DNA from: Psychromarinibacter sediminicola
Lineage (GTDB): Bacteria > Pseudomonadota > Alphaproteobacteria > Rhodobacterales > Rhodobacteraceae
Direction of reading: 5' to 3'
Assembly (NCBI RefSeq): GCF_029168335.1
Contig: NZ_JARGYC010000046.1
Span: forward strand, 1 to 35,213
DNA: 35,213 nucleotides
Both the position numbers and the translations under genes were made by a program. The notes under the pieces were generated by a model, which saw nothing but the letters and a program-made list of their open reading frames with translations, did no database searches and was not told where the DNA came from. Of the stretch, positions 2,964 through 28,951 are shown piece after piece. Within the stretch, counting starts at the first letter, position 1. Every line of letters starts with the position of its first letter.

Positions 2964-3743
2964 TCAGACGATGCGGTTGACCATCATCCGCTTGATCTCG
3001 GCAATCGCCGCCGCGGGGTTCAGGCCCTTGGGGCAGGTCTTGGCGCAGTTCATGATGGTGTGGCAGCGGTAGAGCTTGAACGGATCCTCCAGATCGTCCA
3101 GCCGCTCGCCCGTCGCCTCGTCGCGGCTGTCGACGATCCAGCGGTAGGCGTGCAAGAGCGCGGCCGGGCCGAGATACCGGTCGGAGTTCCACCAATAGGA
3201 CGGGCAGGCCGCCGAGCAGGATGCGCACATCACGCATTCGTAGAGGCCGTCGAGCTTCTTGCGGTCCTCGATGGACTGCTTCCACTCTTTCTGCGGGCGG
3301 TTGGTCTTGGTCTCCAGCCACGGCATGATCGAGGCGTGCTGCGCGTAGAAGTGGGTGAGGTCGGGGATCAGGTCCTTGACCACCGGCATGTGCGGCAGCG
3401 GGTAGATCTTCACGTCGCCCTTGATCTCGTCCAGCCCGTAGATGCAGGCGAGCGTGTTGATCCCGTCGATCATCATCGCGCACGACCCGCAGATGCCTTC
3501 GCGGCAGGAGCGGCGGAAGGTGAGAGTCGGGTCGATCTCGTTCTTGATCTTGATCAGCGCGTCCAGAACCATCGGACCGCAGGCGTCCATGTCGACGAAA
3601 TAGGTGTCGACGCGCGGGTTCTCGCCGTCGTCCGGGTTCCAGCGGTAGATCTGGAACTTGCGGACGTTCTTCGCCCCTTCGGGTTTCGGCCAGGTCTTGC
3701 CGGTGCGGATCTTGGAGTTCTTGGGAAGCGTGAATTGGACCAT
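2964..3743 (-). CDS. sdhB: Succinate dehydrogenase iron-sulfur subunit
   Basis: A 259-residue electron-transfer subunit of complex II at the inner face of the membrane, passing electrons from the SdhA flavin to quinone. The N-terminal plant-type ferredoxin domain holds the [2Fe-2S] ligands Cys80, Cys85, Cys88 (CREGICGSC) and Cys100. The C-terminal domain holds the motifs [17 protein letters not shown] and [14 protein letters not shown] for the [4Fe-4S] and [3Fe-4S] clusters. Length and motifs are normal. The ATG at 3743 follows AAGAGGAT. It is separated from sdhA by a small secreted-protein gene, an arrangement different from the E. coli operon. Confidence 0.97.
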
Positions 3744-4173: not shown

Positions 4174-5979
4174 TCAGAACGTCCTTGCCTTGGGCGCGAT
4201 CCTCTTGAGTTCGATGCCGCCTTCCGTCTCGGTGGTCAGCGGGTCGGTGATAACGGGACGATAGCTGAGTTTCACCGTGTTTCCATCCACGTGGCTCACG
4301 GTGTGGACGCGCCAGTTCTTGTCGTCGCGCTCGGCGTGGTCCTCGTGCGCGTGGGCGCCGCGGGATTCCTTGCGCGCCTCGGCGCCGACAATGGTGGTCA
4401 GCGCGTTGGGCATCAGGTTGGTCAGCTCCAGCGTCTCCATCAGGTCGGAGTTCCAGACGAGGCTGCGGTCGGTGACGTGCAGGTCGTCGAGCTTGGCGGC
4501 GATGGCCGTCATCTTCTCGACCCCCTGCTTCAGCGTGTCCGAGGCGCGGAAGACGGCCGCGTCCTCCTGCATGGTGCGCTGCATCTCGTCGCGCAGCTCG
4601 GCCGTGGGGGTGCCGCCGTCGGCGTGGCGGTAGTGGTCGAAGCGGTCGAGCGCCTTGTCGACCGACACCTGGTTCGGGGTCGGCGTGTGGCCCTCGCGCT
4701 CGACCACGTCGCCGGCGCGGATGGCGGCGGCGCGGCCGAAGACCACCAGGTCGATCAGCGAGTTCGAGCCCAGGCGGTTGGCGCCGTGGACCGAGGCGCA
4801 GCCGGCCTCGCCCACCGCCATCAGGCCCGGCACGATGGCCGTGGGATCCTCGGCGGTCGGGTTCAGCACCTCGCCCCAGTAGTTCGTGGGGATGCCGCCC
4901 ATGTTGTAGTGGACGGTGGGCAGGACCGGGATCGGTTCCTTGGTCACGTCGACGCCGGCGAAGATCTTGGCGGATTCCGAGATGCCCGGCAGACGTTCGG
5001 CCAGCGCCTCGGCCGGCAGGTGGTTGAGGTTCAGGTGGATGTGATCGCCGTTCTCGCCGACGCCCCTGCCCTCGCGAATTTCCATCGTCATCGAGCGGCT
5101 GACATAGTCGCGGGGCGCGAGGTCCTTGTATTGGGGCGCATAGCGCTCCATGAACCGCTCGCCTTCCGAGTTGGTCAGGTAGCCGCCCTCGCCGCGCGCG
5201 CCCTCGGTGATGAGGCAGCCGGAGCCGTAGATGCCGGTGGGGTGGAACTGCACGAATTCCATGTCCTGCAGCGCCAGGCCGGCGCGGGCCACCATGCCGC
5301 CGCCGTCGCCGGTGCAGGTGTGGGCGGAGGTGGCGGAGAAGTAGGCGCGGCCGTAACCGCCGGTGGCGAGCACGGTCATCTTGGCGTTGAAGACGTGGAT
5401 CGTGCCGTCGTCGAGCTTCCAGGCCACGACGCCCTGGCACTGCCCGTCCTCGGACATGATGAGGTCGATGGCGAAATACTCGATGTAGAATTCCGCCTGC
5501 TGTTTGAGGCTCTGGCCATAGAGCGTGTGCAGGATGGCGTGGCCGGTGCGGTCGGCGGCGGCGCAGGTGCGCTGCACGGCGGGGCCTTCGCCGAACTCGG
5601 TGGTGTGGCCGCCGAAGGGGCGCTGGTAGATCTTGCCCTCTTCGGTGCGGGAAAACGGCACGCCGTAGTGTTCCAGCTCGTACACGGCGGCCGGGGCGTG
5701 GCGGGCGAGGTATTCCATCGCGTCGGTGTCGCCCAGCCAGTCGGAGCCCTTGACGGTGTCGTACATGTGCCACTGCCAGTGGTCGGGGCCCATGTTCGAC
5801 AGCGAGGCGGCGATGCCGCCCTGCGCCGCGACGGTGTGCGAGCGGGTCGGGAACACCTTGGTCACGCAGGCCGTGCGCAGCCCCTGTTCCGCCATGCCCA
5901 GAGTGGCACGCAGGCCGGACCCGCCGGCGCCGATCACCACGACGTCATAGTCATGCGTCTCGTAGTCGTAAGCCGCCAT
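4174..5979 (-). CDS. sdhA: Succinate dehydrogenase flavoprotein subunit
   Basis: A 601-residue catalytic subunit that oxidises succinate to fumarate. The N-terminal FAD-binding fold is seen as [14 protein letters not shown], and the covalent-FAD histidine is His48 in [10 protein letters not shown]. The substrate-site segments HPTGIYGSG and TEGARGEGG are intact, as is the capping segment [13 protein letters not shown]. The C-terminal region ends in the usual basic [10 protein letters not shown] tail. Length is normal for the family. It starts nine bases after sdhD and is part of the C-D-A-x-B operon. Confidence 0.98.
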
Positions 5980-5988
5980 GTGTGCCCC

Positions 5989-6360
5989 TCAGAGAACGAG
6001 TTTGGCCAGCGCGAAGATCCCCGCGGCCATCAGGAAGTAGGAAATTGTGATCACAGCGATGATCAGGATCTTGCGGGTGCTGCCGCCGGCGTAGTCCTCG
6101 ATCATGCCCTTGCAGCCCTTGATGAAGTGCTGCAGCCCGACGACGAGCGTCAGGCCGGTGACGATGGCCGGGATCGGGCGCGAGAAGGTCTCGACGACGA
6201 CCTCGTAGCTGCTGCCCATGGCGCGGCCGAAGATGAACAGGAAGGCGGGGATCAGAAAGGCCAGCCCCACGCCCGAGACGGTCATATACCAGTGTTCCTC
6301 GGTGCCGGCATGGGCGGCGCCCTTGCCCTCGGCGCGCTTGCGGGCGGTCAGGTAACGCAT
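5989..6360 (-). CDS. sdhD: Succinate dehydrogenase membrane anchor subunit
   Basis: A 123-residue inner-membrane protein with three predicted transmembrane helices (about residues 26-47, 63-83 and 97-121). The conserved LQHFIKGCKGMIEDYAG segment contains the likely haem b ligand histidine and the ED pair typical of SdhD. With SdhC it anchors the SdhAB dimer and forms the quinone site. It lies ten bases after sdhC and nine before sdhA. The N-terminus has a charged, non-membrane lead of about 25 residues. Confidence 0.94.
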   Translation of the reverse strand: MRYLTARKRAEGKGAAHAGTEEHWYMTVSGVGLAFLIPAFLFIFGRAMGSSYEVVVETFSRPIPAIVTGLTLVVGLQHFIKGCKGMIEDYAGGSTRKILIIAVITISYFLMAAGIFALAKLVL

Positions 6361-6370
6361 CTGCCCCTCC

Positions 6371-6760
6371 TTACACGATGATCAGGGTGATTACGGTCAG
6401 CACGACCGAGCCGATCACGCAGACCCAGCCGAGTTTCTCGGCGGTCTCGATCTGCAGCCCGTGGCCGGCATCCCACAGGAAGTGCCGCAGCCCGGCGAGG
6501 TAGTGATACCAGACGCCCAGGACCGACAGCGCGAAGATCAGGTCGCCGAACCACGACGTCATGAAGGCGTTGACCGGTTCGAAATAGTCCGGCCCCGAGG
6601 CGGCGGCGACGAGCCACCAGACGACGAGGAAGGCCGAGACGATCAGCGCGTTGCCGGTGATGCGGGTCAGGATCGAACTGACCGATGTCATCTGGAGCCG
6701 GTAGTACTGTCCCAGCATGAAGGGCGAGAGCGGCCGTTCGACGGGTTTGCCTTGTGCCAT
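6371..6760 (-). CDS. sdhC: Succinate dehydrogenase cytochrome b556 subunit
   Basis: A 129-residue first gene of the sdh operon, an inner-membrane subunit with three helices. It shows the family start RPLSPFMLGQYYRLQ, the quinone-site segment SSILTRITG and the haem-ligand region HYLAGLRHFLWDAGHG. The ATG at 6760 is chosen over an extension to 6805 because AAGGAG sits seven bases upstream and MAQGKPVERPLSP is a natural N-terminus. Residue 32 is Thr where the E. coli-type SIxHR motif has His. This may be a lineage feature. The paired palindromes 130-160 bases upstream are the likely control site. Confidence 0.94.
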   Translation of the reverse strand: MAQGKPVERPLSPFMLGQYYRLQMTSVSSILTRITGNALIVSAFLVVWWLVAAASGPDYFEPVNAFMTSWFGDLIFALSVLGVWYHYLAGLRHFLWDAGHGLQIETAEKLGWVCVIGSVVLTVITLIIV

Positions 6761-6889
6761 GTCAGCTCCTTGCGTGTCGCGCTGCAGCGGTTGCCTGTTT
6801 CCCATATCGCAGGTCTTTCCCGCAAGTCACGGGGGCAAGGCAGCATTTCGTATGGGAAAATCTCCGGACCGGGCGGTTTTTGTCGACTC

Positions 6890-6920
6890 TGTGATCACGG
6901 GATTCGATGGCGTGATCACA
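6890..6920 (-). promoter_or_regulatory. Paired operator upstream of sdhC
   Basis: TGTGATCACG (6890-6899) and CGTGATCACA (6911-6920) each contain the 8-base palindrome GTGATCAC. Together they make a perfect inverted repeat with centres 21 bp apart, two helical turns. The pair lies about 134 and 155 bases upstream of the sdhC start. A further inverted repeat, GGCGGTTTT (6872-6880) and AAAACCGCC (6920-6928), flanks it. The same pair with the same spacing occurs before sucC, which argues for a shared transcription factor. The distance suits an upstream activator site, but the promoter itself was not identified. Confidence 0.7.
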
Positions 6921-7000
6921 AAACCGCCGCAACGGACCGACCGGGCAATCCTGACCGATTCCGGTGGTCATGGGGTCGTCATCGCCGCGTCACCGGTCCG

Positions 7001-7747
7001 TCAGCGGTTCGGGGCGAGGTCGTGCAGGTAGCGGGCGAATTCGGTGCACATGATGATCTCGCGCGTCTTGGAATCGTAGAAGGCGTTGGCGACGCCGCAT
7101 TCCTCGACCCTGACCAGCATCCGCTTGGGCAGCGACAGATCCTTGTTCATCGCGTCGATTTCGACCTCCAGCACGCTGGCGGTGAAGCGGCCGTACTCTC
7201 CCACCTTGTGGTCCGCCAGGAAGCGGATCGAGCGGCCGGGGCCGTTGTCGTAGAGCTTCTCGATGACCGGCCCCCAGCTTTGCCGGGCCTGATTGTACTC
7301 GTCCTCGCAGGTGCGCTGCCGCGGCTCGGGCAGTTCCAGTTCCTCGGCCACCTGCTGACGCGCGGCGGGGTCGGCGCCGTAGAACAGGCAGACGAAGGTG
7401 TAATAGCGCTGCAGGTCGGGGCCGTGAACATCCCAATAGGCGGGCTCGGTGCCGGAGCGGTTCTTGGCCTCTCCAAGAAAGCCCAGCGCCGTGTGGCGGG
7501 CCATCGAGATGGCGGTCTCTCCGTCGAACAGCGTGTCGATCAGGAAGACCGACAGAACGTCGGCGGCGTCCTCCTCCTGCCCGAAGATCGGCAGTTTCAT
7601 GATGTCGATCAGGGCGTGGCCGAATTCGTGGTAGAAAATCGCCAGCAGGTTGGCCGAGAGGTATTCGTGCCGGTCGCTGCGCAGGCGGGCGGCGTCCGCG
7701 GGAAGCGCGAGGGCCAGGGCGAGGACGAGCGGAATGACTTTTTTCAT
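7001..7747 (-). CDS. Putative secreted metallopeptidase, DUF4344 family
   Basis: A 248-residue protein with a short signal peptide (MKKVIPLVLALALALPADA). The mature N-terminus carries a zinc-binding HEFGH (His40, Glu41, His44) followed by GQEEDAAD (58-63), the layout of the DUF4344 putative metallopeptidase family. Two cysteine-containing segments follow (VCLFYGADP, TCEDEYNQ), and the C-terminus contains a REIIMCTEFARYL segment. It is probably periplasmic. Substrate is unknown and activity is unproven for the family. It is transcribed away from the sdh control region's far side, on the same strand as sdh but upstream of it, and may have its own promoter in 7748-7981. Confidence 0.85.
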   Translation of the reverse strand: MKKVIPLVLALALALPADAARLRSDRHEYLSANLLAIFYHEFGHALIDIMKLPIFGQEEDAADVLSVFLIDTLFDGETAISMARHTALGFLGEAKNRSGTEPAYWDVHGPDLQRYYTFVCLFYGADPAARQQVAEELELPEPRQRTCEDEYNQARQSWGPVIEKLYDNGPGRSIRFLADHKVGEYGRFTASVLEVEIDAMNKDLSLPKRMLVRVEECGVANAFYDSKTREIIMCTEFARYLHDLAPNR

Positions 7748-7981
7748 TGGGATAACGCTATCGGCAGAATGGTTGCGGGGGAATTAAGGCGTGCCCTGCC
7801 CCACGGGTCAAGCCCCCTGTCCGGGGCGCACCGGGGCGTGCCAGGGCGGACGGGCGGTGGCAGCCGGGGTTGTGCGGCGGCCGGAGCCGGCGACTTGCAG
7901 CTTGGCCGGACGGGTCCGGTGTGCCAGTCTGGCGGCAATCTCACAGGTTTCGTCGCCGCGAGGCCCATTGCGCCGAATGGG

Positions 7982-8488
7982 GTGTCATCCTTGTCCCACG
8001 ACCCTCCGACGCTGCACATGCTGTGCGGCAAGATCGCCGCCGGGAAGTCCACGCTGGCGGCGCGGCTGGCGCGGGCGCCGGGGACCGTGCTGATCGCGGA
8101 AGACGTCTGGCTGGGCGCGCTGTTCGCCGATCAGATGTCGTCCGGGGCGGACTATGTGCGCTGCTCGGGCCGATTGCGGGCGGCGATGGGGCCGCATGTC
8201 GTGTCGCTGCTGGAAGCCGGGGTTTCGGTGGTGCTGGATTTCCCCGCGAATACCGTCGCGCAGCGCGGCTGGATGCGGGAGATTCTGGAGGCGTCCGGGG
8301 CGGGGCATCGGCTGCACCTGCTGGATCCGCCAGACGCGGTGTGCCTGGCACGGCTGCGGGCGCGGAACGCGCAGGGCGATCATCCGTTCGCGGCGACGGA
8401 GGCGCAGTTTCACCGCTTTTCCCGGCATTTCGCGCCGCCCGGGCCGGACGAGGGGTTCACCATCGTGCGGCACGGCGTGGCGGACTGA
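7982..8488 (+). CDS. P-loop ATP-binding protein, kinase-like (AAA_33 type)
   Basis: About 168 residues with a Walker A motif GKIAAGKST near residues 16-24, followed by LIAEDVWLGALF, where Asp is the likely catalytic or Walker-B-like acid. The rest (SVVLDFPANT, LHLLDPPDAVCLARLRARN) matches the family of small zeta-toxin/gluconate-kinase-like ATPases often annotated as AAA-family ATP-binding proteins. Substrate is unknown. The start is unclear: GTG at 7982, TTG at 7991 and ATG at 8018 are in frame, and the last is close to the P-loop. I list the first. It converges with mch, with three bases between stops. Confidence 0.82.
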   Translation: MSSLSHDPPTLHMLCGKIAAGKSTLAARLARAPGTVLIAEDVWLGALFADQMSSGADYVRCSGRLRAAMGPHVVSLLEAGVSVVLDFPANTVAQRGWMREILEASGAGHRLHLLDPPDAVCLARLRARNAQGDHPFAATEAQFHRFSRHFAPPGPDEGFTIVRHGVAD

Positions 8489-8491
8489 GCC

Positions 8492-9520
8492 TTATACCGG
8501 CATCAACACCCAGTAGTCGAGGTCGAGCAGCACGTCGGGCAGGTACTTGCCGTCGTCGCCCTTCAGCTCGAACGGCGCACCCTTGGTCGCCACCAGCCGC
8601 AGGCGCAGCGCGCCGACGCCGGGGGCGGCGGTTTCGGCCTTGTCCAGCACCTCGGACCAGGCGCGCACGGTGTCGCCGGCGAAACAGGGGTTGGCATGCG
8701 CCCCGGCGTTCAGGCCCGCGATCAGCTGCGCGTTGGCCAGCCCGTTGAACGACAGCGCGCGGGCCAGCGAGATCACGTGGCCGCCGTAGATCAGGCGCTG
8801 GCCGTCCGGGCGCAGGGTGGCGTCGAAATGGACCTTGGCCGTGTTCTGCCAAAGCCGCGTGGCCATCATGTGCTCGGCCTCTTCGACGGTCACGCCGTCG
8901 ACGTGGTCGATCTGCTCGCCGATCTCGTAGTCGCCCCAGCGATGCGGCTCGCCCGCCAGCGTGACATCGTAGCCGGTGAAGTCGAGGCCGGGCGGCACGA
9001 CGAGGTCGTCAGCGGCCACGGCCGGGGCGAGGTCTGGAATGACCGTCTCGGGCGCAGGGGCCTCGGGGTCGCGTTTGCGGACCATGACCCAGCGCACGTA
9101 TTCCAGCACCGCCACGCCGTCCTGGTTCAGCCCGCGGGTGCGGACCCAGACGACGCCGGACTTGCCGTTGGAGTTCTGCTTGACGCCGATCACCTCGGAC
9201 ACCGCGCGCAGCGTATCGCCCGGCCAGACCGACGCGCGCCAGCGGCCCTCGGCATAGCCGAGATTGGCGACGGCGTTCAGCGAGATGTCGGGGACCGTCT
9301 TGCCGAAGACCACGTGGAAGGCGGCGAGGTCGTCCAGCGGCGCGGCCGGCAGGCCGCAGGACTGCGCGAAGGCATCGGACGAGTACAGCGCGTGGCGCGC
9401 GGGATAGAGCGCGTGGTAGAGCGCCCGCTCGCCCGCGGTGACGGTGCGGGGAACGGCGTGCTCGATCACCTGCCCCGGCGCGTAATCCTCGAAGAAGCGG
9501 CCCGCATACGTCTTGGACAT
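8492..9520 (-). CDS. mch: Mesaconyl-CoA hydratase (beta-methylmalyl-CoA dehydratase)
   Basis: A 342-residue double hot-dog (MaoC-like) enzyme. In the ethylmalonyl-CoA pathway it interconverts mesaconyl-C1-CoA and beta-methylmalyl-CoA during acetyl-CoA assimilation. Sequence such as FFEDYAPGQVIEHAVPRTVT, the LYSSDAFAQSCGL segment and the second domain (MATRLWQNTAKVHFD, YGGHVISLARALSFNGLAN) match Rhodobacter-type Mch. Length is normal. It overlaps the DUF1737 gene by the ATGA junction and closes a four-gene operon that begins with mcl2, another enzyme of the same pathway. This identification is strong from sequence and context combined. Confidence 0.92.
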   Translation of the reverse strand: MSKTYAGRFFEDYAPGQVIEHAVPRTVTAGERALYHALYPARHALYSSDAFAQSCGLPAAPLDDLAAFHVVFGKTVPDISLNAVANLGYAEGRWRASVWPGDTLRAVSEVIGVKQNSNGKSGVVWVRTRGLNQDGVAVLEYVRWVMVRKRDPEAPAPETVIPDLAPAVAADDLVVPPGLDFTGYDVTLAGEPHRWGDYEIGEQIDHVDGVTVEEAEHMMATRLWQNTAKVHFDATLRPDGQRLIYGGHVISLARALSFNGLANAQLIAGLNAGAHANPCFAGDTVRAWSEVLDKAETAAPGVGALRLRLVATKGAPFELKGDDGKYLPDVLLDLDYWVLMPV

Positions 9521-9723
9521 CACAGATCGCCCAGCTTCATGTCGGGGTGATAGTCGGCCTCCACCTCCTTCACCACCGCCTGGGCACAGCGCATCCGCCC
9601 CGTCTCGGCATCGAAGGCCATCGAGGGCGAGCCGTGCAGCTCCCACCCCTTGGACAGGGCGCGCGTGACCTTGTGGCAGAACACCGAGGAATCGTCCTCG
9701 GTCAGCAGGCGGTAGGCTTTCAT
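9520..9723 (-). CDS. DUF1737 domain protein
   Basis: A 67-residue cytoplasmic protein with the DUF1737 pattern: YRLLTEDDSSVFCHKVTRAL, then GWELHGSPS, and a C-terminal CAQAVVKEV. The function of the family is not known. It is translationally coupled to mch (ATGA overlap at 9520) and starts nine bases after the nnrU stop, so it belongs to the mcl2-nnrU-DUF1737-mch operon. Any link with the ethylmalonyl-CoA pathway rests only on this linkage. Confidence 0.88.
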   Translation of the reverse strand: MKAYRLLTEDDSSVFCHKVTRALSKGWELHGSPSMAFDAETGRMRCAQAVVKEVEADYHPDMKLGDL

Positions 9724-9732
9724 GCGGAACCT

Positions 9733-10293
9733 CTACGCGGGGAAGGGATAGTAGCCGAGCCAGGTGTGGATGCCGGCGATCACGCCGAAGACGACCACCG
9801 AGATCACGGCCAGGCGGATGTCGCCGGCCAGGCTGCCGCCCTGCCAGGGGGTCCAGATCGGTTCCGCCCGGTTGATGGCGATCATCTCGGCGATGGCCCA
9901 GAGGCCCAGAAGGCCGAACAGCAGGAGCGACGCCAGATCGCCGTTCACCAGCAGGTGCGCCACGGCCCAGGTCAGCATCCCCAGGAGCATCGGGTGGCGC
10001 ATCCGGGCGCGCAGGCGGCTCTTCGAACTGCCCACGCCGAACAGCGCGACGGCGATCAGCATCAGCAGGTTGTTCAGGTGGCGGCCCCACTCCGGCGGCT
10101 CGTAGACGAAGACGAAATCGGACCAGCGATAGCCCAGGATCATCAGGATGACCGCGATCAGCAGCACCAGCGCGACCACGCCCTTGGCGCCGTCGCCCAT
10201 CCGGTCGGCCAGCGCGCTGCGCTGCGCCGGGGCGAGCCGCTTGAACAGGTGCGCCGCGCACCACAGGACGATGCCGAGGATCAGAAGCGTCAT
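9733..10293 (-). CDS. NnrU family integral membrane protein
   Basis: A 186-residue protein with about five hydrophobic segments (roughly residues 1-15, 39-55, 73-90, 103-140 and 158-182). It contains the NnrU-family signatures MRHPMLLGMLTWAVAHLLVN and WTPWQGGSLAGD, and starts MTLLILGIVLWCAAHLFKR. NnrU proteins were named from nitric-oxide metabolism loci and are related to methyltransferase-type membrane proteins; this copy is not near denitrification genes. Its start overlaps the mcl2 stop as ATGA, so it is the second gene of that operon. Confidence 0.9.
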   Translation of the reverse strand: MTLLILGIVLWCAAHLFKRLAPAQRSALADRMGDGAKGVVALVLLIAVILMILGYRWSDFVFVYEPPEWGRHLNNLLMLIAVALFGVGSSKSRLRARMRHPMLLGMLTWAVAHLLVNGDLASLLLFGLLGLWAIAEMIAINRAEPIWTPWQGGSLAGDIRLAVISVVVFGVIAGIHTWLGYYPFPA

Positions 10294-11150
10294 TGTGCCA
10301 TCTCCAGTGCCGTAATGGCCGCCGCGCGGGCGAGCGTGTTGCGTGCCGTGGCGACATGCAGGTTCTCGACGATCCGGCCGTCCAGCACGGCGACCCCCTG
10401 CCCTTCGGCCTGCGCCGCTTCGTAGGCGGCGATCTGGCGGCGCGCGGTCTCGACCTCGTCCTCGGTCGGCGCGAAGGCGGCGTTGGCGGTGGCGAGCTGG
10501 GCGGGATGGATCAGCGTCTTGCCGTCGAAGCCCAGGTCGCGCCCCTGCTCGCATTCGGCCTTCAGGCCGTCGTCGTCCTTGAAGGCGTTGTAGACGCCGT
10601 CGACGCAGACCACGTCATGCGCCCGCGCGGCCAGCAGGGCCGTCTGCAGGCTTTGCATCAGCGGCAGGCGGTCGGCGCGGAACCGGCAGCCCAGTTCCTT
10701 CGCCAGGTCGTTGGTGCCCATCACCATGCCCTTGAGCCGGGGATGCGCGGCGATCTCCTCGGCATTGAGCACGCCGGCCGGGGTCTCGATCATCGCCCAG
10801 AGGTCGGTGTCGCCGGTCTGCTCGGCCGCAGCGTCGAGGTCGGCCGCGCCACCGACCTTGGGCAGCAGGATCGCGTCCGGGGCGGCGCGCAGGACGGCGG
10901 CGATGTCGTCGGCGCCCCATTGGGTGTCGAGCGCGTTGACCCGGACGATCCGCGCCCGGTCACCGTAGCCGCCATGCATCAGGGCGGCCACCAGCGTCTG
11001 GCGCGCGTTTTCCTTTTCGTCGGCGGCGACGGCGTCTTCGAGGTCGAAGATGATCGCGTCCGCGGTGAGCGTGCGCGCCTTGTCGAGCGCGCGCGCCTTC
11101 GAGCCGGGAATGTAGAGAACGGAACGGTAGGGCCGGGCCTCGCCTGTCAT
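10290..11150 (-). CDS. mcl2: (3S)-malyl-CoA thioesterase, CitE-like family
   Basis: A 286-residue HpcH/HpaI aldolase-superfamily (CitE-like) protein. Seen are YRSVLYIPGSKARALDKA, the metal/CoA region IIFDLEDAV, RVNALDTQWGADD, the glutamate-bearing MIETPAGVLNAEEI and the C-terminal GKTLIHPAQ. It is shorter than malyl-CoA lyase Mcl1 and is in an operon with mch. In Rhodobacter sphaeroides that combination corresponds to Mcl2, which hydrolyses (3S)-malyl-CoA to malate and CoA at the end of the ethylmalonyl-CoA pathway. A lyase activity instead is possible from sequence alone. I chose ATG 11150 over an extension to 11246 because family members start just before this point. Confidence 0.85.
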   Translation of the reverse strand: MTGEARPYRSVLYIPGSKARALDKARTLTADAIIFDLEDAVAADEKENARQTLVAALMHGGYGDRARIVRVNALDTQWGADDIAAVLRAAPDAILLPKVGGAADLDAAAEQTGDTDLWAMIETPAGVLNAEEIAAHPRLKGMVMGTNDLAKELGCRFRADRLPLMQSLQTALLAARAHDVVCVDGVYNAFKDDDGLKAECEQGRDLGFDGKTLIHPAQLATANAAFAPTEDEVETARRQIAAYEAAQAEGQGVAVLDGRIVENLHVATARNTLARAAAITALEMAQ

Positions 11151-11395
11151 GATTCTCGCCTTCGCTGTTGATCGCGCAGAACCCACCACGTGGCGGAATG
11201 CGTGGCAAGCACGGAATTGCCGCGCTGCGGAATCATACTGCGCCATATAGGCTTTGCCTTTCCGGATATTACCGTGAACGGTCCGTTAACCAATTCTTTG
11301 CGGCGGTCGGCCAGTGTCGTCTCCGTGCCGCGTGGCGGCGCGAGCGGGACCAGGGGCGCGCGGGGACGCGCCCCGCAAGCAAAGGGAACGGACGG

Positions 11396-11704
11396 ATGAA
11401 ACGCAGGATTCTTGCACTTTTTCTTGTCGTCGGCGCGGGCGCCCTCGCGGCGCCGGCCGCGGCGCAGCGCAACTGTGCCGAGCGGCAGACAGTGATCGAC
11501 CGGCTGGCCGAGGGCTATGGCGAAAGCCGGCAGTCGATCGGGATCGGCGCCAACAACTCGGTGGTGGAGGTCTTCGCCTCGATCGAGACGGGAACCTGGA
11601 CGATCACGGTGACGATGCCCGATGGCACCACCTGCCTTGTGGCGAGCGGGCAGGCCTTCGAACGGCTGGACGAGGTGCCGAGGCCGGCGGGCGTGAGGAT
11701 CTGA
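11396..11704 (+). CDS. Small secreted hypothetical protein
   Basis: A 102-residue protein with a signal peptide (MKRRILALFLVVGAGALAAP, cleavage near AAAQ at residue 24). The mature part of under 80 residues contains two cysteines (RNCAER, TTCLVA) that probably form one disulfide. The sequence TWTITVTMPDGTTCLVA suggests a beta-rich end. The ATG at 11396 is preceded by GGGAACGG. It faces the mcl2 operon divergently and converges with the TauE/SafE gene with five bases between stops. I do not recognise a named family, although such small proteins occur in this lineage. Confidence 0.8.
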   Translation: MKRRILALFLVVGAGALAAPAAAQRNCAERQTVIDRLAEGYGESRQSIGIGANNSVVEVFASIETGTWTITVTMPDGTTCLVASGQAFERLDEVPRPAGVRI

Positions 11705-11709
11705 ACGCC

Positions 11710-13585
<1,876 letters not shown>

Positions 13586-13586
<1 letters not shown>

Positions 13587-14440
13587 TGAACGGCGCGGCC
13601 CCTTCCCGCGGGTTCGTCTTTGCGGCGACGGGGCCGGGCTTCACAGAGATCGCCGGCCGCGCGGCGGAAAGCGTGCGGTCGGTCCACCCGGACGGGCAGA
13701 TCGACCTGTTCACCGACCAGCCGGAGGCGGCCGGTGTCTTCGACCGGGTCCATCCGCTGACCAATGTCAGCGTACGCCCGAAGTTCGAGGCGCTGCTGCG
13801 CAGCCGGTTCGACCGCACGATCTATATCGACGCCGACACAAGGATGATCGCGCCTGTCGGCGATGTCTTCGACCTGCTCGACCGGTTCGACATCGCGGCG
13901 GCGCAGGACGAGGGGCAGAACAACCCCAACAGCCGCCGATTCTGGCGCACGTCGGTGCCGGCGGCCTTTCCGCAATACAACACCGGCGTCATCGCCGTGC
14001 GGCGGTCCGAGGCGACCGACCGGCTGTTCGCCGAGTGCGACCGCGCCTTCCGCGAGAACGGGCTGGAGAAGGACCAGCCGGTGTTTCGCGAACTGCTGTA
14101 TCTCAGCGACTTCAGGATCGCGACGCTGCCGATGGCCTATAACTGCATGTTCGTCCGGCTGCTGGCGGGGCAGGATCACGAACAGATCGCGCCGCGCATC
14201 CTGCACCTGCCCCGGCTGCACCAGCACCTATCGACGAAGAAGCCGCAGCTCGTCACCGCGCGCGATGTCGTGGGCCCGCTGATGTGGCGGCACATCCTGC
14301 GGATGCGGCGGTCGGACATGACGCTGGACGGCAAGCGGTATCGCAAGTTCGCCCCGCTGATGGATCACGGCCCGCTCGGCCGGCTGCATCGCGGCTATCG
14401 CGACTGGCTGCATCGCCGCGCGCTGCGCGCGTCGCGCTGA
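13586..14440 (+). CDS. GT-A type glycosyltransferase-like protein
   Basis: A 284-residue protein that looks like a nucleotide-sugar transferase of the GT-A/GT8-like fold. RTIYIDADTRMIAPV contains a DxD motif (Asp82-Asp84) for the metal and nucleotide sugar. YNTGVIAVRRSE and KDQPVFRELLY are the later conserved elements of this group. There is no signal peptide or membrane helix. The C-terminus is basic (HRRALRASR), compatible with membrane association. The start is fixed by the TGATG overlap with mdh. The sugar and acceptor are unknown, and no polysaccharide genes are near. Confidence 0.78.
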
Positions 14441-14509
14441 GATCTCGGGGCTAGGCGGCGGGTCCGGTTCGGCGTAGGCTGACGCCATTCCGGTACGGAG
14501 GCTTGCGGT

Positions 14510-15706
14510 GTGATGATCCGGTTCCTGCTGATCCCCCTTATTTTTCTTTCGCTTCCCGCGGCGGCGCGGGCGCAGGCGGAGATCACCGACCGCCTGCGCG
14601 ACGAAGGCCTTCAGCCGACCGAGGCCTACCTGGCTGGGCTGGAGGCGCCGGACGCGACCGAGCGGTTCGCGCTGGGCGCGGTGCGCTTTCTGCGGGGGAT
14701 CGAGAAGACGCTGCAGACCCGCTGGCTTCTGGGGATGAACGCCGCGCGGACGGAACTGCCGGTACTGCGGCTGCCGGTGCCGGCGAACCCGGACCCGCAG
14801 CCGTTCACCGGCGATGCCATCGACGCGCTGGTCGTCGACCTGATCGCGGATCTCGACGCCGCCCGCGCGCCGCTTCTCACCATCGGCGACGAAGACGCGG
14901 TGTCGCTGCCGGTGTCGCTGGACGCGCTGTGGTTCGACATCAACCTGAACGGCACCCGCGACGACGGCGAGGGGCTGATGAACGTGGCGGGCCGGGCGCT
15001 GACCGGGCGCGGGATGGGCGGGGACACGGGCGCGCAGGTGGTCTTCGACACCGCCGATGCCGCGTGGCTGGCGGCCTATACGCATTTCCTGTCGGCCTTC
15101 GGCGAGATCGTGCTGGCCTTCGACCCGGCCGGCCAGATCGCCCGCGTCGTCGAGGCCTCGCGCGAGATGGACGCGCTGGCGGCCGACACACCCTATCAGA
15201 ACGCGATGGACATGCAGTTCGGCCAGCAGGTGGACCGGATCGCGATGATCTATTTCGCGCTGCAGCAGCAGCCGGACGCCGCCCACACCATGGCCGCGCG
15301 CGAGCACCTGTTGCAGATGATCGCGCAGAACCGGGTATTCTGGGCACGGGTCGCGGCGGAGACAGACGACCGCGGCGAATGGGTGCCGAACGACATGCAG
15401 AGCCAGGCGCTTGGCCTGCGGGTGCCGGAGGGCACGGGCGCGCGATGGCAAGCGGTGCTGGATGACGCCGAGGCGCTCTTGAACGGCGAAAAGCTGATCC
15501 CGTTCTGGCGGCTGCGCTCGGGCGCGGGGCTGAACCTGAAACGGATGTTCGAGGATCCGGTGCCGGTCGACCTGGCCGAGTGGATCCACGGCATTGGCCT
15601 GATGCGCTATGCCGAGGAAGGCCCGCGCGTGGCGCCCGACAGCTGGCTGGATTTCGAGCGGCTGATGCGGGGGCAGTCGCTGCTCTATGTCGTTTTCCTA
15701 AACTGA
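14510..15706 (+). CDS. Large secreted hypothetical protein
   Basis: About 398 residues, beginning with a signal peptide (MIRFLLIPLIFLSLPAAARA). The mature protein is helical and acidic, without cysteines or a catalytic motif that I can name. It includes FDINLNGTRDDGEG, a possible calcium-binding-like Asp loop of about twelve residues. Two starts are in frame, GTG at 14510 and ATG at 14513. GGAGG at 14497-14501 is eight bases before the GTG and eleven before the ATG, so either is possible. It stands alone between the glycosyltransferase and the suc promoter. I do not know the family. Confidence 0.78.
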   Translation: MMIRFLLIPLIFLSLPAAARAQAEITDRLRDEGLQPTEAYLAGLEAPDATERFALGAVRFLRGIEKTLQTRWLLGMNAARTELPVLRLPVPANPDPQPFTGDAIDALVVDLIADLDAARAPLLTIGDEDAVSLPVSLDALWFDINLNGTRDDGEGLMNVAGRALTGRGMGGDTGAQVVFDTADAAWLAAYTHFLSAFGEIVLAFDPAGQIARVVEASREMDALAADTPYQNAMDMQFGQQVDRIAMIYFALQQQPDAAHTMAAREHLLQMIAQNRVFWARVAAETDDRGEWVPNDMQSQALGLRVPEGTGARWQAVLDDAEALLNGEKLIPFWRLRSGAGLNLKRMFEDPVPVDLAEWIHGIGLMRYAEEGPRVAPDSWLDFERLMRGQSLLYVVFLN

Positions 15707-15767
15707 CCCGTCGCGGGGGCGGCCGAATCAGCCTGCCGCGGCCCTGTCATGCTGCAGCGCGGAAATT

Positions 15768-15798
15768 TGTGATCACACCCAGAAATCGTGTGATCACA
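15768..15798 (+). promoter_or_regulatory. Paired operator upstream of sucC
   Basis: Two identical 10-base palindromes, TGTGATCACA, lie at 15768-15777 and 15789-15798. Their centres are 21 bp apart and are 134 and 113 bases before the sucC start. The arrangement and spacing match the pair before sdhC. Downstream, GAAATT and AATTTC flank a GC-rich inverted segment (about 15807-15842) that may form a hairpin in the leader. The paired sites probably bind one dimeric regulator twice, on the same face of the DNA. Confidence 0.72.
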
Positions 15799-15906
15799 TA
15801 TGCGGGAAATTCGGCGCCGGCGGGGCGGCCCGGCGCAATTTCTGTTTAAGGCGGCCTCTTTATCGTGTCATGCAAGGCGCAACGCCACGATGCAGGGAAC
15901 GGCTTC

Positions 15907-17100
15907 ATGAATATCCACGAATACCAGGCGAAGGCGCTGCTGCGGGACTACGGCTGTCCGGTCTCGGACGGGCGCGTCGTGCTGACCGCCAACGATGCCA
16001 AGACCGCGGCCGGCGAACTCGACGGCCCGCTGTGGGTCGTGAAGGCGCAGATCCACGCCGGCGGCCGCGGCAAGGGCAGCTTCAAGGAGGCCCGCGCCGG
16101 CGAGAAGGGCGGCGTGCGCCTGGCCAAGTCGGTGGAGGAAGCCGCCGAGGAGACCAACCGCATGCTCGGCCACACGCTGGTCACACACCAGACGGGGCCG
16201 GCCGGCAAGCAGGTCAACCGCATCTATATCGAGGACGGCTCGGACATCGAGCGCGAGCTTTACCTGGCGCTGCTGGTCGACCGGGTGTCGAGCCGCGTCT
16301 CGGTCGTCTGCTCGACCGAGGGCGGGATGGACATCGAGGAGGTCGCCGACAAGACGCCCGAGAAGATCCTGTCCTTCTCGATCGACCCGGCCGTCGGCTA
16401 CCAGGGCTTTCACGGCCGCCGCGTCGCCTTCGCGCTGGGGCTGGAGGGCAAGCAGGTCCGGCAATGCGCCAACCTGATCGGCAACCTGTATCGCATGTTC
16501 ACCGAGAAGGACATGGAGATGCTGGAGATCAACCCGCTGATCGTGACCGACGGCGGCGACCTGAAATGCCTGGACTGCAAGGCCGGGTTCGATTCCAACG
16601 CGCTCTACCGCCATGCCGACATCGTGGGCCTGCGCGACGAGACCGAGGAAGACCCCAAGGAACTGGCCGCGTCGCAGCACGACCTCAACTACATCGCGCT
16701 GGACGGCGAGATCGGCTGCATGGTGAACGGCGCGGGCCTGGCCATGGCGACGATGGACATCATCAAGCTCTACGGCGCGGAGCCCGCGAACTTCCTGGAC
16801 GTGGGCGGCGGCGCCACCAAGGAGAAGGTGACCGAGGCGTTCAAGATCATCACCTCGGACGAGAACGTCAAAGGCATCCTGGTGAACATCTTCGGCGGCA
16901 TCATGCGCTGCGACATCATCGCCGAGGGCGTGATCGCCGCGGTGAAGGAGGTTGGGCTGCAGGTGCCGCTGGTCGTGCGGCTGGAAGGCACCAATGTCGA
17001 GAAGGGCAAGGAGATCATCGCCGGGTCCGGCCTGAACGTGATCGCGGCGGACGACCTGAAGGACGGCGCCGAGAAGATCGTGAAGGCTGTGAAGGGCTGA
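15907..17100 (+). CDS. sucC: Succinate-CoA ligase (ADP-forming), beta subunit
   Basis: A 397-residue ATP-grasp subunit of succinyl-CoA synthetase, which makes succinate and ATP/GTP from succinyl-CoA. It has the standard N-terminus [19 protein letters not shown], the nucleotide-binding segment [14 protein letters not shown], the metal/phosphate region [13 protein letters not shown] and the glycine-rich C-terminal domain ([24 protein letters not shown]). Length is normal. It heads the suc operon under the paired operator. Unusually, sucD is 2.2 kb away, with five small genes between. Confidence 0.98.
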
Positions 17101-19242: not shown

Positions 19243-19259
19243 AAGGAAAAGGGACAGAC

Positions 19260-20141
19260 ATGGCAGTCCTCGTCGACGAAAACACCAAGGTGATCTGCCA
19301 GGGCTTCACCGGCTCGCAGGGCACGTTCCACTCCGAGCAGGCGATCGCCTACGGCACCAAGATGGTCGGCGGGGTGACGCCGGGCAAGGGCGGGCAGGAG
19401 CATCTGGGCCTGCCGGTCTTCAACTCCTGCTTCGAGGCGGTGCAGCAGACCGGGGCGAATGCCTCCGTCATCTACGTGCCGCCGCCCTTCGCGGCCGACT
19501 CGATCCTGGAGGCGATCGACGCCGAGATGGAGCTGGTGGTCTGCATCACCGAGGGGATCCCGGTGCTGGACATGATGAAGGTCAAGCGGGTGCTGGAGAA
19601 TTCCAACACCACGCTGATCGGGCCGAACTGCCCCGGCGTCATCACGCCGGATGCCTGCAAGATCGGCATCATGCCGGGCCACATCCACAAGCGCGGCAAG
19701 GTCGGCGTCGTGTCGCGGTCGGGCACGCTGACCTACGAGGCGGTGAAGCAGACGACCGATGTCGGGCTGGGCCAGTCGACCTGCGTCGGCATCGGCGGCG
19801 ACCCGATCAAGGGATGCGAGCATGTCGACGTGCTGGAGATGTTCCTCGCCGACGAGGAGACCGAGGCGATCATCATGATCGGCGAGATCGGCGGCTCGGC
19901 CGAGGAGGACGCCGCGCAGTTCCTGGCCGACGAGAAGAAGGCCGGCCGCTGGAAGCCGACCGCCGGCTTCATCGCGGGGCGCACCGCGCCTCCGGGCCGC
20001 CGCATGGGCCATGCCGGCGCGATCGTCGCCGGCGGCAAGGGCGGTGCCGAAGACAAGATCGAGGCGATGCAGAGCGCCGGGATCACCGTGGCCGACAGCC
20101 CAGCGGGGCTGGGCGAGGCCGTGCTGAAGGCGATCGGCTGA
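19260..20141 (+). CDS. sucD: Succinate-CoA ligase, alpha subunit
   Basis: A 293-residue CoA-binding subunit of succinyl-CoA synthetase. It shows the N-terminal CoA-binding Rossmann domain ([18 protein letters not shown]), the linker segment [10 protein letters not shown], the [11 protein letters not shown] motif and the phosphorylated histidine, His251, in [13 protein letters not shown]. Length is normal. The ATG at 19260 is preceded by AAGGAAAAGGGA. Its partner sucC is upstream across the five inserted small genes, and a DUF805 gene and sucA follow. Confidence 0.98.
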
Positions 20142-20901: not shown

Positions 20902-23856
20902 ATGACCGACCAGAGCCCCAACGACCAGTTCCACGCCTCGTCCTTCCTGCAGGGGCACAACGCGGAATACATCGAACAGCTCTACGCCCGCTACGCCACC
21001 GACCCGGCCTCGGTCGACGAAAGCTGGTCGGAGTTCTTCCGCCAGATGGGCGACGACGAGGGCAACGTGAAGCAGGAGGCCGCCGGTCCCTCGTGGGAGC
21101 GTCCCGACTGGCCGCCGATGCCCTCGGACGAGCTGACCGCCGCGCTGGACGGCCAGTGGGCGAGGGAGGAGATGAAGGACGCCGGCGCGAAGATCGCCGC
21201 GAAGGCCGAGGAAAAGGACATCAAGGTCTCGGACGAGCAGGTCAAGCGCGCCGTGCTCGACTCGATGCGCGCGCTGATGCTGATCCGCGCCTACCGCATC
21301 CGCGGCCATCTCGTCGCCGACCTGGACCCACTGGGCATGCGCAGCCAGACGCCACATCCGGAGCTGGACCCGAAATCCTACGGCTTCACCGAGGAGGACA
21401 TGGACCGGCCGATCTTCCTGGACAACGTGCTGGGCCTGGAATTCGGATCCTTGCGCGAGATCCTGGAGATCGTGAAGCGCACCTATTGCGGCACCTTCGC
21501 GCTGCAGTACATGCACATCTCGGACCCCGAGCAGGCCGGCTGGCTGAAGGAACGGATCGAGGGCTTCGGCAAGGAGATCCAGTTCACCCGCGAGGGGCGC
21601 CGCGCGATCCTGAACAAGCTGGTCGAGGCCGAGGGCTTCGAGAAGTTCCTGCACGTGAAGTACATGGGCACCAAGCGTTTCGGCCTGGACGGCGGCGAGG
21701 CGCTGATCCCCGCGATGGAACAGATCGTCAAGCGCGGCGGTAACCTGGGCGTCAAGGAGGTCGTCATCGGGATGCCGCATCGCGGCCGGCTGTCTGTGCT
21801 GGCCAACGTGATGCAGAAGCCCTATCGCGCGATCTTCAACGAGTTTCAGGGCGGCAGCTTCAAGCCCGAGGACGTGGACGGCTCGGGCGACGTGAAATAC
21901 CACCTGGGCGCCTCGTCGGACCGGGAGTTCGACGGCAACACGGTGCACCTGTCGCTGACCGCGAACCCCTCGCACCTGGAGGCGGTGAACCCGGTCGTTC
22001 TGGGCAAGGCGCGGGCCAAGTCCGACCAGCTGAACGACCCCGAGCACAAGGCGGTCATCCCGATCCTGCTGCACGGCGACGCGGCCTTCGCCGGCCAGGG
22101 CGTGGTGGCGGAATGCTTCGGCCTGTCGGGCCTGCGCGGGCACCGGACGGGCGGCACGATCCACCTGGTCGTGAACAACCAGATCGGGTTCACCACCGCG
22201 CCGCATTTCTCGCGCTCTTCGCCCTACCCCACCGACATCGCGCTGATGGTCGAGGCGCCGATCTTCCACGTGAACGGCGACGACCCCGAGGCGGTGGTCC
22301 ACGCCGCCAAGGTCGCCACCGAGTTCCGCCAGAAGTTTGGCAAGGACGTGGTCATCGACATGTTCTGCTATCGCCGGTTCGGCCATAACGAGGGCGACGA
22401 GCCGATGTTCACCAACCCGATCATGTACAAGAAGATCAAGGGCCACAAGACGACCCTGTCGCTGTACACCGACCGGCTGGTGCGGGACGGGCTGATCCCC
22501 GAGGGCGAGATTGAGGACCTGAAGGCCAAGTTCCAGAGCCACCTGAACGAGGAGTTCGAGGCCGGCAAGGAATACCGCCCGAACAAGGCCGACTGGCTGG
22601 ACGGCCGCTGGTCGCATCTCGACCGCGAGGGCGAGAAGTACCAACGCGGCAAGACCGCGATCTCCGAGAAGACGCTGAAGGCGGTCGGCAAGGCGCTGAC
22701 CAGCGTGCCCGACGGCTACCCGGTTCACCGCACGGTGGAGCGGCTGCTGGACACCAAGCGCGAGATGTTCAAGACCGGCAAGGGGTTCGACTGGGCCACG
22801 GCCGAGGCGATGGCCTTCGGCTCGCTTCTGACCGAGGGCTACCCGGTGCGGCTGGCCGGGCAGGACTCGGCCCGCGGCACGTTCAGCCAGCGCCACTCGG
22901 CCATCATCAACCAGGAGACCGAGGACCGCTATTACCCGCTGAACAACGTCCGCGAGGGCCAGGCGAAGTTCGAGGTGATCGACTCGATGCTGTCGGAATA
23001 CGCGGTGCTCGGCTTCGAATACGGCTATTCGCTGGCCGAGCCCAACGCGCTGGTGATGTGGGAGGCGCAGTTCGGCGACTTCGCCAACGGCGCGCAGATC
23101 ATGTTCGACCAGTTCATCTCCTCGGGCGAACGCAAGTGGCTGCGGATGTCGGGCCTGGTGATGCTGTTGCCGCACGGCTTCGAGGGCCAGGGCCCCGAGC
23201 ACTCCTCGGCCCGGCTGGAGCGGTTCCTGCAGCAATGCGCCGAGGATAACTGGATCGTGGCCAACTGCACCACGCCGGCCAACTACTTCCACATCCTGCG
23301 GCGGCAGCTGCACCGGTCCTACCGCAAGCCGCTGGTGCTGATGACGCCGAAGTCGCTGCTGCGGCACAAGCTGGCGGTGTCGGATGCCGAGATGTTCACC
23401 ACCGGGTCGAGCTTTCACCGCGTGCTGTGGGACGACGCCGAACAGGGGCATTCGGAGACCGAGCTGAAGCCCGACGACGAGATCAAGCGCGTCGTGATCT
23501 GCTCGGGCAAGGTCTATTACGACCTCTTGGAGCAGCGCGACGAGGCCGGGCTGGACGACGTCTACCTGATCCGGCTGGAACAGTTCTATCCCTTCCCCGC
23601 GTTGGCGCTGGTGAAGGAGCTGGAGCGGTTCAAGGGGGCCGAGATGATTTGGTGCCAGGAAGAACCCAAGAACCAGGGCGGCTGGACCTTCGTCGAGCCG
23701 AACATCGAATGGGTGCTGAGCCGGATCGGCGCCAAGCACACGCGGCCCGTCTATACCGGCCGCCCGGCCTCGGCCTCGCCGGCCACCGGGCTGGCCTCGC
23801 AACACAAGGCACAACAGCAGGCGCTGGTGAACGCGGCGCTGGGAATCGAAGGATAA
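20902..23856 (+). CDS. sucA: 2-oxoglutarate dehydrogenase E1 component
   Basis: A 984-residue thiamine-diphosphate enzyme that decarboxylates 2-oxoglutarate and transfers the succinyl group to the lipoyl arm of SucB. The N-terminal E2-docking helix region ([20 protein letters not shown]) and the [14 protein letters not shown] segment are typical. Catalytic and cofactor regions include [16 protein letters not shown], the ThDP/metal region ([21 protein letters not shown]), [12 protein letters not shown]-like [11 protein letters not shown] and [13 protein letters not shown]. The C-terminal [14 protein letters not shown] and [12 protein letters not shown] are present. Length is normal. GGGGAAAGAC precedes the ATG, and sucB follows after ten bases. 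Confidence 0.98.
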
Positions 23857-23866
23857 GGCAGACACC

Positions 23867-25435
23867 ATGAGCACCGAAGTCCGCGTGCCCACCCTGGGCG
23901 AAAGCGTAACCGAGGCCACCGTCGCGACCTGGTTCAAGAAACCGGGCGACAGCGTTTCGGTGGACGAGATGCTGTGCGAGCTGGAGACCGACAAGGTCAC
24001 GGTGGAGGTCCCCGCCCCCGCCGCCGGCACGCTGGGCGAGATCGTCGCTGAAGAGGGCGCGACCGTAGGGGTCGACGCGCTGCTGGCGACGATTTCCGAG
24101 GGCGCCGCCAAGGCCGGCGGCGATGCCGGCAAGGCCGAGGCGGCCGACGCGCCCGCCGAGGAGGCCGACAAGGCCGACAAGGCGCCGGCGGCCGCCGTGT
24201 CCGAGGGCGGCGACGGCGAGAGCATCGACGTGATGGTCCCGACCCTGGGCGAGAGCGTCAGCGAGGCGACCGTCGCGACCTGGTTCAAGCAGGAAGGCGA
24301 CTCGGTCAAGCAGGACGAGATGCTCTGCGAGCTGGAGACCGACAAGGTCTCGGTCGAGGTGCCGGCGCCGGCGACCGGCGTGCTGACCGAGATCCTCAAG
24401 CCCGAGGGCGAGACGGTGGAGGCCGGCGGCAAGCTGGCCAGCATGTCCAGCGGCGGCGGCGCGGCGGCGAAGCCCCAGGCCAAGGCCGCGGCAGAGGAGG
24501 CGGAGAAACCGGCCGCGAGCCGCGACGGCAAGGATGTCGAGGACGCGCCGTCGGCCAAGAAGCTGATGGAGGAGAAGGGCCTGACCCCCGACGACGTCAC
24601 CGGCACCGGCCGCGACGGGCGCATCATGAAGGAAGACGTGATGAAGGCCGCCGAGCAGCCCAAGGCCAAGCCGGCCGAGGCCCCTGCCCCGGCCGCCAAG
24701 CAGGCGCCGCGCGCGCCCTCGCCGGCCGAGGATGCCGAGCGCGAGGAACGGGTGAAGATGACCCGCCTGCGCCAGACCATCGCCCGCCGGCTGAAGGACG
24801 CGCAGAACACCGCCGCGATGCTGACCACCTATAACGAGGTGGACATGACCGCGACGATGGACCTGCGCTCGGAATACAAGGACCTGTTCGAGAAGAAGCA
24901 CGGCGTGAAGCTGGGCTTCATGTCCTTCTTCACAAAGGCCTGCTGCCACGCGCTGAAGGAGGTGCCAGAGGTCAATGCCGAGATCGACGGCACCGACGTG
25001 GTCTACAAGAACTTCGTGCATATGGGCATCGCCGTGGGCACGCCGAACGGGCTGGTCGTGCCGATCGTCCGCGACGCCGACCAGATGTCCTTTGCCGCGA
25101 TCGAGAAGAAGATCAACGAGCTGGGCAAGAAGGCCCGCGACGGCAAGCTGTCGATGGCCGAGATGCAGGGCGGCACCTTCACCATCTCGAACGGCGGGGT
25201 CTACGGCTCGCTGATGTCCTCGCCGATCCTGAACCCGCCGCAGTCGGGCATCCTCGGCATGCACAAGATCCAGCAGCGCCCGATGGTCGTGGACGGGCAG
25301 ATCGTGGCGCGGCCGATGATGTACCTGGCGCTGAGCTACGACCACCGGATCGTCGACGGCAAGGGCGCCGTCACCTTCCTGGTCCGCGTGAAAGAGGCGC
25401 TGGAGGATCCGCGGCGCCTGTTGATGGACCTGTGA
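23867..25435 (+). CDS. sucB: Dihydrolipoyl succinyltransferase E2 with two lipoyl domains
   Basis: A 522-residue E2 core of 2-oxoglutarate dehydrogenase. It has two lipoyl domains (residues about 3-80 and 120-197, lipoyl lysines Lys43 and Lys160 in ETDKV). An Ala/Pro/Lys-rich linker leads to a peripheral-subunit-binding domain ([20 protein letters not shown]), then the catalytic domain with His493 and Asp497 in [10 protein letters not shown]. coli SucB has one lipoyl domain and about 400 residues. The two domains here are near-identical over 53 residues (44 matches). Many Rhodobacterales are thought to have a long form, but I cannot confirm it here. Confidence 0.97.
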
Positions 25436-27562: not shown

Positions 27563-28951
27563 ATGTCCAGCTATGATGTCATCGTCATCGGGTCCGGCCC
27601 GGGCGGCTATGTCTGTGCGATCCGCTGTGCCCAGCTGGGGCTGAAGACCGCCTGCGTCGAGGGGCGCGAGACGCTGGGCGGCACCTGCCTGAACGTCGGC
27701 TGCATCCCGTCCAAGGCGCTGCTGCACGCCAGCGAGATGCTGCACGAGGCCGAGGAGAACTTCGCCAAGATGGGGCTGAAGGGCAAGGCGCCCTCGGTCG
27801 ACTGGAAACAGATGCTGTCCTACAAGGACGACACCATCGGCCAGAACACCAAGGGCATCGAGTTCCTGTTCAAGAAGAACAAGATCGACTGGCTGAAGGG
27901 CTGGGGCTCGATCCCCGAGGCCGGCAAGGTCAAGGTCGGCGAAGAGGTGCACGAGGCGAAGCACATCGTGATCGCGTCGGGCTCCGAGGCGGCCTCGATC
28001 CCGAATGTGGAGATCGACGAGAAGGTCGTGGTCACCTCGACCGGCGCGCTGGAGCTGTCGAAGGTGCCCAAGAAGATGGTGGTGATCGGCGCCGGCGTGA
28101 TCGGGCTGGAGCTGGGGTCGGTCTACAACCGCCTGGGCGCTGAGGTGACGGTGGTGGAATACCTCGACAACATCACGCCCGGGATGGACGCCGAGACGGC
28201 CAAGGCGTTCCAGCGCACGCTGAAGAAGCAGGGCCTGACCTTCGTGCTGGGCGCCGCCGTGCAGGGCGTCGAGGCGATGAAGACCAAGGCCAAGGTCAGC
28301 TACAAGCTGAAGAAGGACGACAGCGAAGAGGTGCTGGACGCCGATGTCGTGCTGGTCGCGACGGGGCGCAAGCCGTTCACCGACGGGCTGGGGCTGGACA
28401 AGCTGGGCGTGAAGACGACCGACCGCGGCGTGATCGAGACCGACAAGCACTATGCCACCAGCGTCAAGGGCGTCTACGCCATCGGCGACTGCATCACCGG
28501 CCCGATGCTGGCCCACAAGGCCGAGGACGAGGGCATGGCGGTGGCCGAGATCCTCGCCGGGCAGGCGGGCCACGTGAATTACGGGGTGATCCCGTCGGTC
28601 ATCTATACCTGGCCCGAGGTGGCCACGGTGGGCGAGACCGAGGAGACGCTGAAAGAGGCCGGCCGGGCCTACAAGGTCGGCAAGTTCTCCTTCATGGGCA
28701 ACGGCCGGGCAAAGGCCAACTTCGCCGCCGACGGGCAGGTGAAGATCCTCGCCGACAAGGAGACCGACCGCATCCTCGGCGCGCATATCATGGGGCCGGC
28801 GGCGGGCGACCTGATCCACGAGGTCTGCGTCGCGATGGAGTTCGGCGCGGCGGCCGAGGATCTGGCGCGCACCTGCCACGCGCACCCGACCTATTCCGAG
28901 GCGGTGCGCGAGGCGGCACTGGCCTGCGGCGACGGCCCGATCCACAGCTGA
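27563..28951 (+). CDS. lpdA: Dihydrolipoyl dehydrogenase (E3)
   Basis: A 462-residue FAD disulfide oxidoreductase that reoxidises the lipoyl groups of SucB (and probably of pyruvate dehydrogenase) with NAD. The FAD fold is [17 protein letters not shown]. The redox disulfide is Cys42-Cys47 in [16 protein letters not shown]-binding is [16 protein letters not shown], and the catalytic His-Glu is in HAHPTYSEA near the C-terminus. Length is normal. GAAGGAG precedes the ATG. It is the last gene of this plus-strand run and ends just before three palindromes. Confidence 0.98.

Follow-up and report, generated by a model that had tools for sequence, protein, structure and literature searches.

Paired palindromes upstream of sdhC and sucC in Psychromarinibacter sediminicola are probable operators of the tricarboxylic acid cycle regulator AkgR

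The window analysed here, a 35,213-nucleotide stretch of the Psychromarinibacter sediminicola genome (contig NZ_JARGYC010000046.1), carries a pair of identical eight-base palindromes, GTGATCAC, upstream of each of two sets of tricarboxylic acid (TCA) cycle genes, one beginning with sdhC and the other with sucC. Both pairs are most probably operators of AkgR, a TCA-cycle regulator of the GntR/FCD family that we take to be RSP_0981 of Rhodobacter sphaeroides, and the likely regulator here is very probably the GntR/FCD protein P0001, encoded in the same window. In the available parts of the published reports, from which the statements on R. sphaeroides regulators below are also taken, AkgR is a transcriptional activator with GTGATCAC among its sites (PMC6365646), and the GntR protein RSP_0981 is predicted to act on sucCD, sdh and the 2-oxoglutarate dehydrogenase genes (PMC4344238). 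The same motif stands before the same targets in the window, with a single pair for the whole sucC-to-lpd set, a putative operon. The paired 21-bp arrangement is not mentioned in the literature surveyed, a partial survey without the main AkgR paper. As far as these sources extend, the regulon and the motif are already known; what is added here is a detail, the strict pairing that the family maintains.

The four palindromes of the two pairs lie at 6891-6898, 6912-6919, 15769-15776 and 15790-15797, so that the centre-to-centre distance is exactly 21 bp, or two helical turns, before sdhC and sucC alike. These positions agree with the initial annotation, which had also seen no further copy before mdh, sucA or lpd; no exact GTGATCAC was found upstream of these three genes in the window scan. 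In total, the window contains five copies of GTGATCAC, compared with a mean of 0.61 and a maximum of 3 in shuffled sequences (five or more in 0/100 shuffles). The genome-wide scan for paired sites that the annotation had proposed, run over 5.03 Mb in 278 contigs for exact pairs with a gap of 0-30 (pattern GTGATCACN{0,30}GTGATCAC), returned the sdhC and sucC pairs only, and all three genomic copies of the ten-base form TGTGATCACA fall within the window. Allowing up to three mismatches gave 100 places across the genome, a number that makes degenerate pairs uninformative; they were rejected as extra targets, being mostly noise, and no wider regulon is claimed. The fifth GTGATCAC, absent from the initial list, lies inside sdhD, where its closest partner at 21 bp within the window has three mismatches. 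It was rejected as a third operator, as GTGATCAC occurs in just 6/35 sdhD sequences, five of the six from this genus (all five genus members examined). The TGTGATCACA at this place is the sole unpaired TGTGATCACA of the genome.

The two outcomes that the initial annotation had named as refuting its reading were not seen: the pair is conserved before sdhC and sucC in relatives, and its spacing preference is strong. All five genomes of the genus (5/5) have at least one pair, with 21-bp spacing in every pair listed. In the family Rhodobacteraceae (295 genomes; a pair being two exact GTGATCAC with a gap of 0-30), 267 genomes have at least one. Among the 75 family pairs listed, which come from 37 of the 267 positive genomes, 65 are spaced at 21 bp and 5 at 20; of the remaining pairs, two have 18 bp and the others 13, 27 and 31 bp. 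In the class beyond the family, 24/380 genomes have any pair, and the spacing is 21 bp in two of those. Named family members found via their PufL loci have two or more pairs in 12/12 cases, each together with a P0001 orthologue. The genes downstream were checked in Cereibacter johrii, Mameliella alba and Rhodovulum imhoffii, and in all three the two pairs precede sdhC and sucC. A search for SucC in 80 chosen genomes (the 28 that lack a pair, 7 discordant ones and a further 45) succeeded in 77, from which 73 upstream regions were fetched; with the window added, 53/74 sucC upstream regions contain a pair at 20-21 bp (one-position A-to-G change allowed), at a near-fixed distance from sucC. In pairs with one degraded site, the partner often reads GTGATCGC, ATGATCAC or GCGATCAC, and the spacing is unchanged at 20-21 bp.

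The P0001 gene lies beyond lpd and encodes a GntR helix-turn-helix domain and an FCD domain. In C. johrii, where PufL matches the R. sphaeroides query sequence exactly, the P0001 orthologue lies beside sdhB and is 76% identical. McbR (YncC) of E. coli has a different target and recognition sequence; with its GntR/FCD fold it is, by sequence, the best solved relative (PDB 4p9f, E 1.9e-20, residues 19-211). Across 58 sequences, at least 98% retain the helix-turn-helix stretch SMTP.RE and the residues H141, H184 and D206, and these three residues may serve to bind a ligand or a metal. When a strong orthologue was defined by a best E of 1e-70 or better, a cut-off set after viewing the values, orthologue and pair were both present in 260 of the 295 family genomes and both absent in 23, with 7 genomes having the pair only and 5 the orthologue only (Fisher p 1.7e-23, kinship uncorrected). 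With a cut-off of 1e-50, two genomes without a pair (G126, G284) and one with a pair (G037) gain an orthologue, and the counts become 261 both, 6 pair only, 7 orthologue only and 21 neither. Two of the five genomes with an orthologue and no exact pair (G044, G294) still show a pair when one mismatch per operator is allowed, and no canonical sucC was found in the other three (G151, G158, G169) by the SucC search. Strong orthologues were found in 5/385 genomes of the class sample, all five within the family. The link to AkgR, offered as a hypothesis in the initial annotation, thus gains support from the published sites (PMC6365646) and targets (PMC4344238), from the regulator gene in the window and from its co-occurrence with the pair.

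The palindrome is also found at the regulator's own gene. In a non-random set of 58 distinct orthologue loci (the best 30 of the family search, the loci of the named genomes and 4 from the class sample), 33 carry a GTGATCAC between -400 and +60 relative to the aligned start, 31 of them at -25 to -9; the 58 loci, 209 kb in all, contain 41 copies. Self-repression would agree with a site placed over the start, and we suggest that in many relatives the lone site would let the regulator repress its own gene. A related case is the GntR-like regulator PS417_07240 of Pseudomonas simiae, which is 32% identical to AkgR and for which the same GTGATCAC is proposed upstream of its own gene; however, it controls a deoxyribonate cluster, and its site is a single palindrome at -47 to -40 rather than a pair (PMC6365646, available part). 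In G455, a genome of another family, a 21-bp pair (L313:992-1020) is followed after 32 bp by a GntR/FCD gene whose product shares 29% identity with P0001. The palindrome, and the 21-bp spacing as well, may therefore be common to a broader branch of GntR/FCD proteins.

Some genomes have more than two pairs. The extra pairs examined were rejected as targets, as several fall within long reading frames and their spacings vary. One third pair, 13 bp apart in G190, is located at the regulator gene, the only such case among them. Another, at 20 bp in G307 (L349:1444-1471), is followed after 169 bp by a gene whose product has a Vut_1 (vitamin uptake transporter) domain; this gene might be an extra target. 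Three GTGATCAC at successive 21-bp steps were seen before sucC in G139 (L229), and three at such steps also in R. calidifons (G299:C11:327609-327658).

Alignment of the promoters with an exact 21-bp pair (47 of sucC and 26 of sdhC) revealed conserved flanks, with TTT and AAA on the outer sides and A(C) and T on the inner sides. The whole pair has the form TTTGTGATCACAC-N8-gTGTGATCACAAA, a palindrome of palindromes that is clearest at sucC. Since the outer (TTT...AAA) and inner (AC...GT) flanks are symmetric around its centre, the pair can be read as a single composite palindrome of about 35 bp. We consider this form best explained by two dimers in contact, in which each GTGATCAC would be the site of one dimer and the two dimers, 21 bp apart, would touch each other on the same face of the DNA. 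The spacing by whole helical turns that characterises a two-dimer cooperative operator is found in most of the listed family pairs, and cooperative binding of the two dimers would fit this spacing. In addition, 57 genomes with two 20- or 21-bp pairs were tabulated by hand from the listings; 50 have 21 bp at both pairs, 3 have 20 bp at both and 4 are mixed, with the 20-bp spacing at sucC in two and at sdhC in two (Fisher p 0.003, kinship uncorrected; the operon served by each pair was gene-checked in the 7 genomes with a 20-bp pair and not in most of the others). This hints that the spacing answers to the regulator protein. Alternatively, each site might be bound independently, with no dimer contact, the 21-bp spacing being left by history or by a shared promoter geometry. 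The single site at many akgR orthologues would agree with such binding, as would some sdhC promoters (L197 and L219) in which no recognisable partner site was found. However, we regard independent binding as unlikely, because the spacing of the listed pairs is nearly uniform, the flanks share a composite symmetry, the 20-bp spacing tends to occur at both operons of a genome and even degraded partners remain at 20-21 bp.

Distances between operator and predicted promoter were taken with the proximal site's centre as origin and the start of a -35-like element as end point, TTTAA-like at sucC and CGTGAC-like at sdhC. The former stands at 49-52 bp in 28/53 aligned promoters and the latter at 60-63 bp in 22/29, whereas four-base bins off the peaks hold at most 7 for sucC and at most 2 for sdhC (bins overlapping the peaks excluded). 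The two distances, about 50 and about 62 bp, differ by some 11-12 bp, about one helical turn, as would be expected if the complex has to be turned towards the polymerase at these predicted promoters. Bound two-dimer complexes would act on RNA polymerase from this distance, and sdhCDAB and sucCD-sucAB-lpd would be switched jointly, most likely on. The signal is perhaps a C4/C5 acid such as 2-oxoglutarate, as the name AkgR alone would suggest. GntR/FCD proteins are often repressors, and the sdhC and sucC operators lie 8.9 kb apart in the window, so that the pair could be thought to repress by blocking the polymerase or by DNA looping between the operons. Nevertheless, repression appears improbable, as the pairs lie well upstream of the -35-like elements and not over them, and AkgR is termed a transcriptional activator (PMC6365646). 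AkgR would act as an activator at the sdhC and sucC promoters.

Several observations weigh against the assignment of these operators to AkgR or against the architecture proposed for them. The -35 candidates were chosen after viewing the alignment. No GTGATCAC was found near the regulator start in the window genome and the four other genus members (0/5), nor in C. johrii. The pair-only genomes are either genuine exceptions or the product of assembly gaps; G100, G267, G276 and G037 are 73-77% complete, while G118 is rated 100%, G259 93% and G023 91%. G284, with a borderline orthologue (E 2.2e-58), lacks a pair. In the SucC tree both orthologue and pair change many times, and a kinship-aware independent-pairs test on it was not significant. 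This test is not decisive, because the tree is weak (7/71 inner branches well supported) and only 3 independent pairs were available. In the same tree G140 is represented by a distant SucC (66%) without a pair, though the genome has two; this row is perhaps a non-canonical gene.

The lack of significance after correction for kinship leaves room for another regulator reading the sites, either CceR or a further GntR paralogue, with P0001 merely co-distributed; the genome has 25 FCD-domain matches, P0001 among them and the sole paralogue profiled. CceR (RSP_1663) resembles AkgR in that control of central carbon genes of R. sphaeroides, sdh among them, is attributed to it (PMC11323563, PMC4344238). 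It differs in that it belongs to the LacI family and its predicted motif is an inverted repeat, GTT-N6-8-AAC, and not the GTGATCAC of the window sites (PMC4344238), so that it was rejected as their reader (a comparison that covers the paired sites and no other part of these promoters). The motif comparison proposed in the initial annotation therefore falls to AkgR, and a different regulator is very unlikely, given that GTGATCAC is tied to AkgR and a GntR-like relative (PMC6365646) and that P0001 orthologues have it at their own start.

The features of the window are listed in Table 1. The names sdhC, sdhD, sdhA, sdhB, sucC, sucD, sucA and mdh are upheld by NCBIfam profiles, and the domains of sucB and lpd were identified by Pfam. 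Genes resembling mesaconyl-CoA hydratase and HpcH/HpaI aldolase lie between sdhC and mdh (8492-11246, minus strand), a placement retained in C. johrii, M. alba and R. imhoffii.

Table 1. Predicted operators, promoter elements and genes of the window.
Feature	Position	Strand	Remark
Paired operator upstream of sdhC, predicted	6890..6920	-	proximal site 6891-6898; before sdhC in relatives too
Paired operator upstream of sucC, predicted	15768..15798	+	proximal site 15790-15797; before sucC in relatives too
Lone TGTGATCACA inside sdhD	6046..6055	.	role doubtful; 8-base GTGATCAC at 6047-6054
-35-like CGTGAC, sdhC promoter (inferred)	6826..6831	-	picked from sequence
-35-like GTTTAA, sucC promoter (inferred)	15844..15849	+	picked from sequence
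sdhC, first gene of target operon	6371..6760	-	TIGR02970
sdhD	5989..6360	-	TIGR02968, barely above cut-off
sdhA	4174..5979	-	TIGR01816
sdhB	2964..3743	-	NF004616
sucC, first gene of target operon	15907..17100	+	NF001913
sucD (start codon assumed)	19257..20141	+	NF004230
sucA	20902..23856	+	NF006914
sucB	23867..25435	+	PF00198 and lipoyl domains
lpd	27563..28951	+	PF07992, PF02852
GntR/FCD regulator P0001, 216 aa, likely AkgR orthologue	30342..30992	-	PF00392, PF07729

Taken together, we tentatively propose a fuller scheme, possible but more doubtful than the assignment to AkgR itself, in which AkgR reads architecture. A composite operator of about 35 bp, occupied by two touching dimers spaced at 21 bp (or at 20 bp in a minority of cases, both operons of a genome then tending to shift jointly) and helically phased at about 50 or 62 bp from the -35 element, would drive the TCA operons, whereas a lone site at the regulator's own gene would form a negative loop, and the spacing would co-evolve with the dimer-dimer surface. 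With this finding, an operator architecture under strict conservation in a large family is connected with an established TCA-cycle regulator, and the gene that probably encodes this regulator in the present genome is identified. Spacing, helical phase and the logic of one site versus two thereby become directly testable in a laboratory Rhodobacter relative.

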